In this document: positions 3,787 through 10,185 of the stretch, piece after piece
Layout: each line of letters opens with the position of its first letter
Numbering within the stretch: the stretch's first letter is position 1
Assembly: GCA_021162935.1 (NCBI GenBank)
Contig: JAGGXR010000131.1
Span: 1-64,000 of the forward strand
DNA: 64,000 nt
Direction of reading: 5' to 3'
Source: Deltaproteobacteria bacterium
Lineage (GTDB): Bacteria > Myxococcota_A > Polyangia > HGW-17 > SLPX01
Translations under genes and position numbers: made by a program
Notes under the pieces: generated by a model
Told to the model about the DNA's origin: nothing
The model's input: only the letters and a program-made list of their open reading frames with translations
Databases searched by the model: none

Positions 3787-4371
3787 ATGGTCGATTCCAG
3801 AACCGAAAAGAGAAAGCAGCTCGTGCAGGTTGCACAACGCGTCATCCAGAAGCAGGGAATTCGGAAGACGACGTTGGAGGACATTGCTCGGGCTGCGGGG
3901 ATGGCGACCACTTCGGTGTACTATTATTTCAAGAACAAAAACAAACTGTTGCGCGCAGTGGTCAGCGCGCTGATCGACAGCACGCTTGCAAATGTCGAGG
4001 CCGCAATTTTCGCCTGCGCAGGCCCTGAGGAGAAGCTCATCGCGAGCTGGAAAGTCATTTTCATGGCGATCACCGACAGTGCGATCTTATTGGATCTGGG
4101 GGCCAACTCGAAACCCGAGGTAGTCGCTCTTGCAGGGGACCTGATTCGCGACTTCGAGGCCAGGTACAAGAAACTGATCCGCAATATCATCGTGGAAGGA
4201 GTCGAGCGAGACTTGTTTCATGTCGAGGACATCGAACTGACGGTCACCCTTCTTTCCAGTGGGACCATCGGCCTCATCACCACCATTGCCGGTGAAGTCG
4301 AATATGAACTCATCGGGCAGCATATCGACGAGTTGGGCGAGTTGCTTATGAATGGGCTGAGGCAGCGATGA
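3787..4371 (+). CDS. TetR/AcrR-family transcriptional regulator
   Basis: 194 aa. The N-terminal helix-turn-helix is typical of TetR: ...TTLEDIARAAGMATTSVYYYFKNKNKLL at about residues 28-56. The C-terminal ligand domain is all-helical and not informative about the effector. ATG at 3787 is preceded by GAGGAG. A dyad at 3742-3764 in its promoter suggests autorepression. It is followed after 247 bp, same strand, by the membrane-HD-radical-SAM fusion gene, which is the most likely regulated target. Confidence 0.9.
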   Translation: MVDSRTEKRKQLVQVAQRVIQKQGIRKTTLEDIARAAGMATTSVYYYFKNKNKLLRAVVSALIDSTLANVEAAIFACAGPEEKLIASWKVIFMAITDSAILLDLGANSKPEVVALAGDLIRDFEARYKKLIRNIIVEGVERDLFHVEDIELTVTLLSSGTIGLITTIAGEVEYELIGQHIDELGELLMNGLRQR

Positions 4372-4618
4372 CAACAGACTGCAAGCACGATGTTTTTTTT
4401 GTCGCAGATTCAAAGATTGGACTCGAAAGCTCGAATCTTCGATATCGGTTGGCCTTTTTGTATCGGGTTGCCGGGTCTTGCGGCAGGGCGCTCGCTCTCT
4501 CCAACCCATCGTTACACTTGCATTCGTGCGTGGCGCGGCTTTCGCCAAGGACCTTGCTGCGGGGCTTATGTCTGTTCTGGGCGGCTGTGATGCAAACCAG
4601 TGAAGATGGAGGTGCGGA

Positions 4619-7306
4619 ATGATTCCTTCAGTGTTCTCCGATCCGTTTGTCGTGCTCGTTCTCTTTGCTGTCTTCTCTTTCGTCGGGTGGGTGATCGAGA
4701 TGGCCTACCGCTCCGTAGAGCACTGGCGGTTCGTCAATGCGGGCTTCTTGTACGGCCCAGTCGTACCCATCTACGGGTTCGGCGGTCTTGCGGTGGTGTG
4801 GCTCGACTATGCTTTTGGCCCGACAAATCTCCTGGTCAAGATGCTCGCCTTCACGGTTGTCTTGACCGCCCTCGAATACGTGGCTGGATTTCTCTCTGAG
4901 AGGATTTTCGGACTGAGACTTTGGGATTATTCAAAAAATCGCTTCAATCTACAAGGAAGGGTCTGCCTGCTCTTCTCGATTTTGTGGGGTGTGCTGGCCG
5001 TTTTTCATGCGCAGGTGCTCTTCCCTGCTGTGTTGGGCATGGTGCAACAACTCAGTCCCCAATGGCTGAGGGTCGCGTCGGCGCTCATCCTCGTTGCGTT
5101 TGCAGTGGATTTGGTCTTTTCAGTGGTCGCATTGCGCTCCTTCCGCACGGCGATCGCTTCCTCCAAGGTGCGTATTTCAGCATCGTTGCGTCGGATCGCG
5201 GATGCGTTTCCCTATGCGAGGCAGAAACTGGTCACCGGCCTCATCAGGAAGAACGGTCAGAGCATCTCTTCGCTCATCAGAATGTATCACGACCGCTGGG
5301 TAACCGTCTGGCAGAGACACCGACCTTTGGACGAGGAGTACGAGTCCATCGTCTCCGACATCCTTCAGAACGACACCTTTCTCCGTCTCAAGTCCTTCCG
5401 GCATCACACCTCGTCGATCTTTGAACACGTGCAAGTGGTCTCCTACATCGCGTACCGGGTCTGCAAGCGGTTGGGTGTCGACTACCGGTCGGCTGCGCGG
5501 GGTGGACTGCTGCACGATTTTTTCCTGTACGATTGGCACAATCACGACCTTCCCGAGCTTGCAAAGGACAAAAACCACGGCTGGGAGCATCCGAAAATCG
5601 CTCTGCGTAACGCCGCGCGATATTTCTCTCTCAACGCAATCGAGCGAGACATCATCCTTCGGCACATGTGGCCGTTTACGCTGGTTCCCCCGCAGTATGT
5701 GGAATCTTATGCGGTTTGTCTCGTGGACAAGTATGTCACGACCAAGGAGTACCTGTTTCCTCGATGGGCGAGCCGGCACCGCATTGTCAGAGAGAAACGA
5801 GGCATTCAGCAACTTCAGGCCCTTTCCGATGGCAATCCGGCCCTAGAATCCGAGGCCGTCGATAGAGCGAAAGCCGGGAGTCGAAGTCTGGTCAAGAAGA
5901 GACCCCGGGTGAAGCTGATCACGATTCCGTGGTCGTACGACGTTCCGACGCTGAGTCTGGCCTCTTTGGCCGCGGTAACGCCCAAGGAGATGGAAGTCAG
6001 CCTGGTCGATGTGCTGCGCCAGCGGCTCATTCTCGACGAACCGGTGAATCTGGTGGGCATCAGTGCCTCCACCCCGAGCATCAAAGCTGCATACGAGTTG
6101 GCGGATTTCTATCGTGCTCGCGGTGCCGTCGTCGTCATTGGAGGCCACCATGCCACAGCGATGCCCGAGGAAGCGCTCCAGCATGCCGATGCGGTGGTAT
6201 GCGGTGAGGGCGAGACTTCCTGGGCGCGCATCTGCGACCAGTTTCTGACCAATCCTGCGCGAGTGGGTGGCATTTACCGTGACCCGGCGCCAGACCTTTC
6301 GGTCCTGCCTCAGCCCAGGACAGACTTGATGTGCCTGGAGCGGTACAGCCGGTATGCCTATCCCGTGACCGCAACCCGGGGTTGCCCCCATCGCTGCTCG
6401 TTCTGCTTTTCTCGATACATGAGCCCGACCTACCACAAGTTCCCCATCGCCCATGTTCTCGAGCAGGTTCGGCGTCGGCCTCCATTTGTCAGGGGAATGT
6501 ACTTTGTCGATGACAACTTGGTGGGGGACGTAGACTACACACGCGAACTGTTTCGTGCGCTCAAGCATGAGCGGATCCCGTTCGTGATGCAGGCGCGCAT
6601 TGAGGTTGCCTCAGACCCCGAAATGTTGCGTCTTGCTCACGAGGCTGGCTGCATTGCGATTTCCACTGGCTACGAGTCGATCAGCCAGATGAGTCTCAAT
6701 CGGGTGGGCAAACAAGCCGATGCGTCAACATACAAGGAGGCCTCACGTGCAATCTTCGAGGCGGGAATGGCGCCGTCGAGCAATTGGGTCCTGGGGTTCG
6801 ACTGGGATGGACCCGATTGTTTCGACCAGACCTTGGCCTTCCTGGATGACTCCTGGGTGCTCGACGCAGCCTTCACCACCGAAATCCCGTTTCCAGGCAC
6901 ACCCGCGTTCAAGAGGTACGAGAGGGAAGGTCGGATTCTGACCTATGACTACGATGAGTACGTGGGCAAGGACCACGTCGTGATCCGTCCCAAGGAGATG
7001 ATGCCAGAGCAACTTCGGGACGGCATTCGTCGATTGGCCAAAGAATTCTACTCGGTTCGACGCATCCGGTCGCGGCTGCGTCGCGTCAAATCGAATCCGT
7101 TGATTCTCGATGCTTTCCCGATATCGCAGCGCAATCGTGTGGCCTTGTTCGTGGGGATGTATCAGGCATACCACTGGCACGAACTCATGATCCCGCCGCT
7201 CCGCCGATTCGCAAACGGCATCAAAAGGACAAATGTGTTGCTGCGCCACCGAGACGCTATCCTGCGCTCCAATTTCGACCAGGCACCGACCGGGACAGAC
7301 GGCTAG
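4619..7306 (+). CDS. CmpB-like membrane domain / HD domain / B12-binding radical SAM fusion
   Basis: 895 aa in one open frame. Residues 1-180 have several membrane segments and the Gly/Trp-rich signature (FVGWVIEM, NAGFLYGP..PIYGFG) of PF06541 CmpB-like proteins. Residues about 260-400 form an HD domain with the HD pair at 299-300 in LLHDFFLYDWHNHD. Residues about 430-545 resemble a cobalamin-binding domain of the class lacking DxHxxG (GGHHATAMPEEAL, GEGE). The radical SAM cluster CxxxCxxC is C589, C593, C596. A C-terminal region with GFDWDGPD, PFPGTP and HVVIRPKEM resembles DUF4070 of HpnP/HpnR-type enzymes. CmpB-HD pairs are known; attachment of a radical SAM methylase-like half is unusual. 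Start has GGAGGT. Product unknown, probably acts on a membrane-associated substrate. Confidence 0.85.
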   Translation: MIPSVFSDPFVVLVLFAVFSFVGWVIEMAYRSVEHWRFVNAGFLYGPVVPIYGFGGLAVVWLDYAFGPTNLLVKMLAFTVVLTALEYVAGFLSERIFGLRLWDYSKNRFNLQGRVCLLFSILWGVLAVFHAQVLFPAVLGMVQQLSPQWLRVASALILVAFAVDLVFSVVALRSFRTAIASSKVRISASLRRIADAFPYARQKLVTGLIRKNGQSISSLIRMYHDRWVTVWQRHRPLDEEYESIVSDILQNDTFLRLKSFRHHTSSIFEHVQVVSYIAYRVCKRLGVDYRSAARGGLLHDFFLYDWHNHDLPELAKDKNHGWEHPKIALRNAARYFSLNAIERDIILRHMWPFTLVPPQYVESYAVCLVDKYVTTKEYLFPRWASRHRIVREKRGIQQLQALSDGNPALESEAVDRAKAGSRSLVKKRPRVKLITIPWSYDVPTLSLASLAAVTPKEMEVSLVDVLRQRLILDEPVNLVGISASTPSIKAAYELADFYRARGAVVVIGGHHATAMPEEALQHADAVVCGEGETSWARICDQFLTNPARVGGIYRDPAPDLSVLPQPRTDLMCLERYSRYAYPVTATRGCPHRCSFCFSRYMSPTYHKFPIAHVLEQVRRRPPFVRGMYFVDDNLVGDVDYTRELFRALKHERIPFVMQARIEVASDPEMLRLAHEAGCIAISTGYESISQMSLNRVGKQADASTYKEASRAIFEAGMAPSSNWVLGFDWDGPDCFDQTLAFLDDSWVLDAAFTTEIPFPGTPAFKRYEREGRILTYDYDEYVGKDHVVIRPKEMMPEQLRDGIRRLAKEFYSVRRIRSRLRRVKSNPLILDAFPISQRNRVALFVGMYQAYHWHELMIPPLRRFANGIKRTNVLLRHRDAILRSNFDQAPTGTDG

Positions 7307-7329: not shown

Positions 7330-7735
7330 CATTACTAGACCGCCTCGGGTCGGCCAAAAGCTTGTAGCCCCGGAGTCGTCGTCATTTGTTCTGCGCCGTC
7401 TCCATCAATTTCCAGGCCATCGCCAATGTTGTCATTCGATTGCCACAGTTCTTCGTCTTCCTGGCTGTCAGCCGCACCGCGGAAAACATCGATTCAATCG
7501 GGTTTGTCGTCCGGATATGCTGCTAGTGCACCGCCGAGAAATCATAAAATGCCAGCCTCGCGTGTCTCGGCCATCCAAATTCGTGCAGCGCCGTCTTGTG
7601 CACCGAGCAGATCTGTTGCGCCCTCTGTGGCCACTTCTTGCTAACCGCCTTCCAGAAACCCAGCGGCCCGTCGCCGACCGCCCGTGGTAGCCAGCGCCAA
7701 CCCTGGTGCCGTCCGAAGCGCCCCAAATACTCGCC
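7330..7735 (-). pseudogene. Truncated IS256-family (mutator) transposase
   Basis: On the minus strand an ORF (7726-7523) contains AVGDGPLGFWKAVSKKWP and CSVHKTA, the GDGALGFW..WVHK signature of IS256-type transposases. A second frame closer to 7330 reads IESMFSAVRLTARKTKNC, then MAWKLMETAQN and RRLRGYKLL, the family's C-terminus. The N-terminal half, including the first catalytic Asp, is missing, and at least one frameshift separates the two parts. Confidence 0.75.
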
Positions 7736-7841: not shown

Positions 7842-10185
7842 CGGGCACGTAGAGCACCTTGCCTTTGAGTCGCTGCAGGCTGGCGGGGTCCAGGTCACGG
7901 TAGTCGAAGCCCGTGTGGGTGCGCTGCCTCCAGACTTTCCGAAGAAGGCGCCGGTTGGCCGGATGATTCACGATCCATGTGGCGGCGGAATAGTAGAATC
8001 CAGGCACGGTGTAGAGACGCGGGCAATGGGCGGCCTGCCGCTTGATGTGGGCGAACAGGTTAGACAGGCTCACCCGTCCCGACGAGAGGCCCCGGCCGAA
8101 CCGAACGGCATTGGGGATCCTGACAGCGACCCAGACGTAACGACGACGACGCGCAGCGATCCGAGGGGCGAGGCGCACGAGTTCCACGGGGACCGAATGG
8201 GTCAACTCGGCCACCGGGTAGGCATAGTGGAATCCCAGGACCCGGTCGAACTGCCAGGGCTGGGCCTTGCGCTTGCCCATAGATGGCATCATTTCCAACA
8301 GGACCGAGTGGGTGAACCCGGACCGCGTTTCTTCGAGGTGTTCCGTCTGGAAGTAGAAGTCGGACGCGGTGATCAGGTCGCCTGGCTTGGTCAGCAGATG
8401 GGCGAGCCTCCCGGCACCCTGCTGCGCGTACCAGGTTCTCGCAATGTGCGCCAGGGCAACCCGATGCCGCTCCACGTCCTGCTCCATCTGGAGATACTGG
8501 ATTCGGATCCGCTTTGCCTTGGGCCGATCGGACGGATTCAGGTCCTGGGCCTGACCGTGGAGCACGAACCGGATGAGGCCGGCGAAGCGACGTATCCGGT
8601 CGAGCCGCGTTTGCAGGCGCTGGGCGCGGATCCGAAGATGGCACCGGGCACCAGGCCGGGCGCCAGGCCGGGCGCCAGGCCGCGCAGGGACACGGCTCGT
8701 TTGCGAACAACGAGGTTGGCGCGCAAGACGAGGTTGGCGCCCAGGGACACGGCTCGTTTGCGAACAACGAGGTTGGCGCGCAAGACGAGGTTGGCGCGCA
8801 AGACGAGGTTGCCGCCCAGGGTGAGTGGATCGAGCACTGGCATTGGGCCGAGCCGCAGGCGTTGAAAAACGAGTCAGGCGGGCGAGTCGGGCAGCGAGTT
8901 GCCGGGCCATGGCATCGAGTTGGTAGAGGTTCAGACCGCAGCCATATCCGACAATGCAAGCGGTCAGATGCTCTTGGCGGAAGCGTCGGTACCGGCTCGA
9001 CGGGAACAGGACATGCGCCTGACGAGCGGCAGCGATGAGACGATCGCTATAGCGACGGAGGGCGGCCTCGGATTTTCGGCCTGGCGCCATAATGCTGCCT
9101 TGCCATACGGGGTGCCGGGCGGACGAAGGGGAGACCGCCCATGCAGGCCGGACGCCGAGTTGACGGCCCGCCAGGTCGAGCCTGTCAAGCAGAGCCGCCT
9201 TGATGCGCTTTGCCCACAGAACCGCAAGCTCTCTGGTGGCCGGCGTCCAGCGCCTGCCGTGGCACTGGTGGGTCCGACGCAGAAGCAGGGCCAAGGGGCG
9301 CAGTGCCGGGGCGAGCCAGGGTTTCGGCATACGGCACAGGTACGCGCGAAACCGCCACAGGCCGATGGAGGTGGCAAGCTGGGTCATGGACCTAGACCCC
9401 GTCGCGGCAGAGGTGGCGAGGTGGGGCACGGGCTTAGGATCCATCGTGGCACCGGGAGTCGTGGACGGGACGCCGGGGTGGCGGTCCATGGCTGCCGCGC
9501 GGCTCGCCAGAGTTTCGAGTCGATGGGCGTCGAACAGTTCATCGATCAAGGCATCGGAGACCACGGGCCAAACCGCGGCGAACCTGGTGCCGGTGAGGGT
9601 GGGGCCCGAAAAGTCATTGGTGGCGGCCACGGAGTTGAGGTGCACATCCCAGGCCGCACCGAACAGACCGAGTTCGAAGCTGGCCCCAGGTCCGAGTTCC
9701 AGGTCCAACAGGGCGTCGTGGCCCCTGGCGCAGAGGTTGACCTCCTTGGGCCACAGTTCGTCACCGTTGAACAGGTAGCCGTGCATGACGGCGCGGTCGC
9801 GGGCGAACGAGGTAAACAATTCACCGCGCCGAAACGGGGCAAAGATGGGCCCGACCACGTTGAGCCGACAGGCGCCCGGTGACGATTGGGTGGCTCCGCC
9901 GCAGTGCTGCGCCTCCGAGCAGGCTCCCAGATGCCGAGTCGACGGCCGACAGCCGGACGTTGCAACGAAAGACGCCGGCACGAAAACCAACAGAACGAAG
10001 AGCATTTCGACGAGGGATCGCCGGAGGCGGAACCGCCAGACGAGGCCGAATGGGGCGAAGAAACGCGGGGCGAAGAGACGCGGGGCGAAAACCGCCAATC
10101 CCGCTGAAGACGATCCAACGGAATCCGCTGATGCCGACAGCGCTGATCGTGACACAGAGGACGAATGGGAATGCACAGCCACCAT
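7810..10185 (-). CDS. Large secreted/lipoprotein of unknown function with repeat insert
   Basis: About 791 aa from ATG 10185; the frame is open upstream to 10431, but that part overlaps another gene. A hydrophobic stretch followed by VATSGC (near ATG 10005) looks like a lipoprotein signal, so 10005 is an alternative start. The middle (encoded by 8650-8820) is a low-complexity Arg/Gln/Pro/Gly tract made of DNA tandem repeats. The C-terminal ~280 residues are regular sequence rich in Tyr, His and Arg (FDRVLGFHYAYPVAELTHS, VPGFYYSAATWIVNHP). No known domain recognised. It follows the small lipoprotein by 12 nt, likely one transcript with the pan genes upstream. Confidence 0.65.
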   Translation of the reverse strand: MVAVHSHSSSVSRSALSASADSVGSSSAGLAVFAPRLFAPRFFAPFGLVWRFRLRRSLVEMLFVLLVFVPASFVATSGCRPSTRHLGACSEAQHCGGATQSSPGACRLNVVGPIFAPFRRGELFTSFARDRAVMHGYLFNGDELWPKEVNLCARGHDALLDLELGPGASFELGLFGAAWDVHLNSVAATNDFSGPTLTGTRFAAVWPVVSDALIDELFDAHRLETLASRAAAMDRHPGVPSTTPGATMDPKPVPHLATSAATGSRSMTQLATSIGLWRFRAYLCRMPKPWLAPALRPLALLLRRTHQCHGRRWTPATRELAVLWAKRIKAALLDRLDLAGRQLGVRPAWAVSPSSARHPVWQGSIMAPGRKSEAALRRYSDRLIAAARQAHVLFPSSRYRRFRQEHLTACIVGYGCGLNLYQLDAMARQLAARLARLTRFSTPAARPNASARSTHPGRQPRLARQPRLARQPRCSQTSRVPGRQPRLARQPRCSQTSRVPARPGARPGARPGARCHLRIRAQRLQTRLDRIRRFAGLIRFVLHGQAQDLNPSDRPKAKRIRIQYLQMEQDVERHRVALAHIARTWYAQQGAGRLAHLLTKPGDLITASDFYFQTEHLEETRSGFTHSVLLEMMPSMGKRKAQPWQFDRVLGFHYAYPVAELTHSVPVELVRLAPRIAARRRRYVWVAVRIPNAVRFGRGLSSGRVSLSNLFAHIKRQAAHCPRLYTVPGFYYSAATWIVNHPANRRLLRKVWRQRTHTGFDYRDLDPASLQRLKGKVLYVPVGLLPVRSSD
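8651..8820. repeat. In-frame tandem repeats (12, 18 and 57 bp units)
   Basis: A GGGCGCCAGGCC 12-mer is repeated about three times at 8651-8682. A 57-bp unit beginning AGGGACACGGCTCG follows at 8686-8742 and 8743-8799, with the inner 18-mer TTGGCGCGCAAGACGAGG repeated again. All unit lengths are multiples of three, so the reading frame of the minus-strand gene is kept. Confidence 0.9.

Follow-up and report, generated by a model that had tools for sequence, protein, structure and literature searches.

A single-frame fusion of a CmpB-type membrane domain, an HD domain and a B12-binding-type radical SAM half, with a tentative role on a phosphorylated lipid or isoprenoid

Results

Architecture of the fused gene

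The fused gene occupies positions 4619..7306 (+) of the window, the whole 64,000-nucleotide stretch of DNA analysed here, as one unbroken frame of 895 codons that runs from an ATG at 4619 to a TAG ending at 7306 with zero internal stops and has GGAGG immediately 5' of its ATG. The encoded protein of 895 aa begins with a CmpB-type membrane domain (residues 15-169, 4661..5125), for which the family ABC_trans_CmpB, PF06541, scores 151.7 bits (E 2.2e-44), above its gathering score of 25.9; in the hydropathy profile, hydrophobic segments span residues 1-180. An HD domain follows (residues 245-380, 5351..5758) and then an in-frame linker that forms the fusion joint (residues 385-430, 5771..5908). 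The remainder comprises a B12-binding-fold domain (residues 434-534, 5918..6220; PF02310, E 6e-14), a radical SAM core (residues 585-728, 6371..6802; PF04055, E 3e-13) that contains the CxxxCxxC 4Fe-4S motif (6383..6406), and a C-terminal helical tail (7061..7303) that is common to the standalone radical SAM family in both the alignment and the model, all of these features lying on the plus strand. Pfam, the alignments and the uninterrupted frame confirm, at the level of sequence, the architecture of the original prediction, namely three parts in this order within a single frame of 895 codons. The linker (about residues 385-430) is without ATG, GTG or TTG, the first possible internal start being the GTG of codon 431, and both of the other frames contain stops near the joint. 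GC3 is near equal in the two halves of the gene (0.70 and 0.71), and the gene is single copy across the whole of its own genome.

The HD domain and its pairing with CmpB

The HD ligands H270, H299, D300, H324, H349 and D370 are invariant in an alignment of eight sequences. An extended H…HD…H…H…D motif marks a dinuclear HD site (PMC8177086), and the presence of all six ligands of this motif identifies the HD domain of the fused protein as the dinuclear type. The isolated domain scores 19.9 bits against Pfam HD, just under the cut-off of 22 that a related Collinsella protein passes (30.9), and its HDIG match in a general library is weak (E 3e-4). The model of the CmpB-HD half is moderate to poor (pLDDT 72); the better Foldseek matches of the HD half are mostly HD proteins, including the HD domain of PgpH, a dNTPase and YqeK, none with a significant E-value (about 0.1), and no convincing solved relative of CmpB-HD was found by sequence. 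Stand-alone HD proteins of Collinsella and Subdoligranulum share 40-42% identity with the domain. The CmpB gene comes after a 178-aa HD gene in Collinsella, whereas the CmpB and HD genes of Subdoligranulum are consecutive and share a reading frame. This adjacency, together with the degree of identity, indicates an old association of CmpB with HD, which is a fusion in the standalone relatives and has here been extended by the radical SAM half.

The radical SAM half

C589, C593 and C596 are invariant in an alignment of 15 sequences, so that the conservation expected of both the HD and the CxxxCxxC residues is borne out. With PF02310 and PF04055 above cut-off and the CxxxCxxC motif kept, the half is assigned to the class B (B12-binding-type) radical SAM enzymes; DxHxxG was not seen by eye in residues 434-534. 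The model of this half is good (pLDDT 83), and its structural matches include AprD4, MgmA, TsrM, CysS and OxsB. AprD4 is the best solved structural match (E 1.8e-18) and also the best by sequence, and OxsB is a weak sequence match (E 0.0024). Since enzymes of this radical SAM fold methylate, dehydrate or contract rings, the fold does not tell which reaction is catalysed; the methylation proposed at first finds no support, as the best solved relative, AprD4, is a diol dehydratase. The suggested kinship to hopanoid methylases also falls away, with the hopanoid C-3 methylase HpnR missing its equivalog cut-off at 37 of the 650 bits needed. BchE likewise misses its equivalog cut-off (81 of 481 bits), and HpnJ reaches 60 of 578. 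The lipid-linked radical SAM enzymes HpnJ, HpnR and rSAM_ladder_B12 are weak NCBIfam matches, but the fused protein lies far under every curated cut-off. The DUF4070-like C-terminus that had been proposed has no Pfam match at E<=1.

Distribution and a second fusion

Relatives of either half otherwise stand alone. Eight genomes (G008, G009, G010, G011, G027, G035, G594 and G785) encode CmpB-HD as a standalone frame of about 406-490 aa. Standalone radical SAM proteins of roughly 505-525 aa, at 52-59% identity, occur in eleven, of which nine belong to the phylum of G318 and the others are G499 and G021, the last with two copies; among the genomes tested, G021, G499 and G609 carry a standalone radical SAM gene without CmpB-HD. 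Searches of four overlapping sets, comprising 318 genomes of the class, 379 sampled from the phylum, 52 of the class of G499 and 195 of the phylum of G318, gave no other intact three-part fusion; the two halves were not found as separate genes in the same genome (eight genomes tested), and the viral contigs scanned held no relative of the fused protein. By these searches the fused architecture is rare, in agreement with the original claim that it is not a standard one.

A second fusion is found in G600 (L052/L093), a member of the class of G318, where an HD tail and a radical SAM half share one frame with 36% identity over residues 348-822 and retain HMWP, PP, ES and the last Asp; the HD tail alone matches at E 1.7e-7. 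The G600 contig starts inside the HD domain, and its 5' end, hence any CmpB part, lies outside the sequence. The HD-radical SAM joint is thus present, to judge from these frames, in two divergent lineages, and the divergence of the second fusion makes a frameshift or a pure sequencing error at the joint, a possibility raised with the prediction itself, unlikely. In a tree built from 53 radical SAM domains, both fusions fall in one clade (100/99), where the sister of G600's domain is the standalone L038. Given this standalone sister, the distribution of fusions on the tree requires no fewer than two events, either two separate joinings or a single joining followed by losses, in a count that treated L004 (described below) as a fusion although its 5' part lies off the contig. 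L098 (bchE) and L099 (hpnJ) form long branches in the tree, and their placement was left unused. Separately, a tandem array of three B12-type radical SAM genes is present in G609 (C195:8174-12187; L070/L074/L076).

Signs of mobility

The contig QMME01000148.1 (L004, Myxococcota) is 95.4% identical in DNA to the radical SAM part over 1334 bases. The similar stretch begins where the L004 contig does, at residue 453, and ends one base beyond the stop codon, after which the sequences are unrelated; the ThrS proteins of our genome and the L004 genome share only 43% identity. This combination of near-identical DNA, divergent ThrS and similarity ending one base past the stop is best explained by horizontal transfer, and the gene has probably moved between distant lineages, contamination of one assembly being the alternative. 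GC in L004 is 0.51-0.60 inside the gene and 0.65 and more beyond, and the dN/dS of about 0.29 between the two near copies of the radical SAM half indicates purifying selection. The G318 assembly yielded no CmpB-HD part, its contig ending short of it. In the window, a degenerate IS256-family transposase remnant with stops inside (7349..7675, -), which matches annotated IS256 transposases at up to 72% identity, lies just 3' of the fused gene, and the GC content of 0-7.6 kb is below that of the remainder. Directly past the radical SAM gene, L004:1334-1400 switches to unrelated, much higher-GC DNA that includes AATTCGGGGACGGTC and may mark the boundary of a mobile element.

Gene neighbourhoods

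A gene for a TetR-family regulator (3787..4371, +; PF00440, E 2e-14) lies 5' of the fused gene on the same strand, and between the two is an imperfect inverted repeat (4410..4442), a possible operator that may well be chance. TetR genes also lie 5' of CmpB-HD, on the same strand, at two loci (L090 and L092, in G035 and G785), and regulation of the fused gene by the upstream TetR is plausible. CmpB-HD shares its strand with genes for an MMPL exporter and a patatin phospholipase in G027 and G035, which belong to one genus, and in G594, where other genes separate MMPL from patatin; patatin and CmpB-HD overlap in G027 and G594. The order in G785 is TetR, HlyD, an AcrB-OEP frame and CmpB-HD. This AcrB-OEP frame (L092:2845-7368), adjoining CmpB-HD, joins an AcrB-type RND permease and an outer-membrane efflux (OEP) domain in 1508 residues. 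The genes 3' of the G600 fusion encode HEAT, transglutaminase-like, CDP-alcohol phosphatidyltransferase-GtrA and HpnN-like MMPL-PgpA proteins, the last of these (L093:4870-7821) being an HpnN-like MMPL transporter fused to phosphatidylglycerophosphatase A and preceded by the CDP-alcohol phosphatidyltransferase-GtrA fusion. Neighbours of the standalone radical SAM genes vary between genomes. For the nearby radical SAM gene L043, a divergent neighbour reads by eye as an MMPL-type transporter, and in three genomes another radical SAM gene lies near the standalone one (L081:10249-11628, L084:12924-14897 and L079:16735-18000); for L081 and L084, the two that were scanned, its best NCBIfam match is the tetraether synthase Tes at 60-62 of 450 bits, far under the cut-off. 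A general lipid-handling setting that recurs among the neighbours is supported, because MMPL/RND, patatin, TetR, phosphatidyltransferase and PgpA genes adjoin. Of the lipid or isoprenoid substrate originally envisaged, the general link to lipids thus stands through the neighbourhoods, and the analogy to hopanoid methylases is left unsupported by the scores.

Discussion

To our knowledge, no described enzyme combines a membrane part, a dinuclear HD domain and a B12-type radical SAM domain in one chain. The closest arrangement in the membrane half is the CmpB family PF06541 with its HD partner, which has the same membrane domain and the same HD family and occurs as neighbouring genes in Collinsella and Subdoligranulum and as a fusion in eight genomes, but the known pairs are without a radical SAM part, and the literature searched on CmpB with HD reports no function for the pair. 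AprD4 differs in acting on an aminoglycoside, paromamine, and in having neither an HD nor a membrane part. In oxetanocin A biosynthesis, the HD phosphohydrolase OxsA serves the B12 radical SAM enzyme OxsB (PMC13331322). The radical SAM model also matches OxsB, and the likeness to OxsA and OxsB lies in the pairing of domain types only, as they are two separate proteins with a nucleotide substrate and without a membrane domain. This precedent, taken with the domains and motifs of the fused protein, leads us to propose a single-chain, membrane-anchored version.

We favor, with a probability of roughly 0.4, a membrane-anchored bifunctional enzyme in which HD and B12-type radical SAM activities of the OxsA and OxsB kind act on a phosphorylated lipid or isoprenoid. 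In this mechanism, the CmpB domain, itself evident from the sequence, would sit in the membrane, the HD domain would hydrolyse a phosphate or diphosphate ester, and the radical SAM domain with its B12-fold partner, presumably using cobalamin, would attack an unactivated carbon by radical chemistry, either in the same substrate or in an adjacent intermediate. The substrate would be a membrane-embedded phosphorylated lipid or isoprenoid, with the order of the steps equally conjectural; the activity may be linked to the export of lipids through MMPL/RND carriers, and the upstream TetR would control the gene. Several observations weigh against this proposal. The radical SAM half does not need CmpB-HD, as G021, G499 and G609 have it without that part, and the neighbours of its standalone forms vary. 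AprD4, the best structural match, is no methylase, the HD half is poorly modelled (pLDDT 72, Foldseek E about 0.1), and in the G600 fusion, cut at its 5' end, the CmpB part is unseen. We regard as unlikely the formulation of a membrane-integral single chain that couples radical SAM and dinuclear HD chemistry on a lipid or polyprenyl carrier and is mobile between distant lineages.

PgpH is a membrane-anchored dinuclear HD c-di-AMP phosphodiesterase that has a membrane domain other than CmpB and is without radical SAM; its HD domain is among the Foldseek matches of the HD half, along with a dNTPase and YqeK, though at no significant E-value. These matches speak for a different role, in which the HD domain would be a membrane-tethered nucleotide hydrolase of the c-di-AMP or Ap4A type, comparable to PgpH and YqeK and devoted to sensing or signalling, and the radical SAM domain would have a substrate of its own, perhaps a nucleotide or a small molecule, with co-regulation as the purpose of the fusion. 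The six-ligand motif is common to YqeK (PMC8177086) and OxsB and OxsA act on nucleotides (PMC13331322), but the genes that recur in the neighbourhoods are those of lipids or efflux, with no nucleotide-related gene recurring among those seen, and the membrane domain is CmpB, which differs from that of PgpH. A nucleotide role thus appears doubtful.

The fusion could instead be an accident that joined two unrelated genes in a mobile, IS-bounded segment of lower GC, with halves that function independently. Each half does stand alone elsewhere, the IS256 remnant adjoins, the first 7.6 kb of the window is lower in GC and the radical SAM part is nearly identical to that of the distant L004 genome; yet G600 shows the same order at 36% identity, the motifs are intact in each half and dN/dS is low over the radical SAM half, which makes an accident rather improbable. 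Very improbable is an assembly or binning artefact, a chimeric contig uniting a CmpB-HD gene with a radical SAM gene, for although the source genome is a draft in 168 contigs, L004 begins 21 codons past the end of the linker and the exact joint was seen once only, the join is exactly in frame with even GC3 and the G600 fusion (L052) is independent.

Returning to the membrane-anchored lipid or isoprenoid enzyme, the radical SAM fusion and the lipid-transport and phospholipid-synthesis neighbours are a clue that the CmpB family and its HD partner may work in lipid or isoprenoid-phosphate metabolism. If true, the fused protein would be a single-chain version of the HD and B12 radical SAM pairing known from OxsA and OxsB. 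Elsewhere in the window, a leucine carboxyl methyltransferase-family gene (PF04072; 247-1152, -) lies within the first 3 kb of the contig, where GC is low, and short-unit repeats (ARPGARPG-like and LARQPRLARQPR-like) occur in open frames at 8060-9000.
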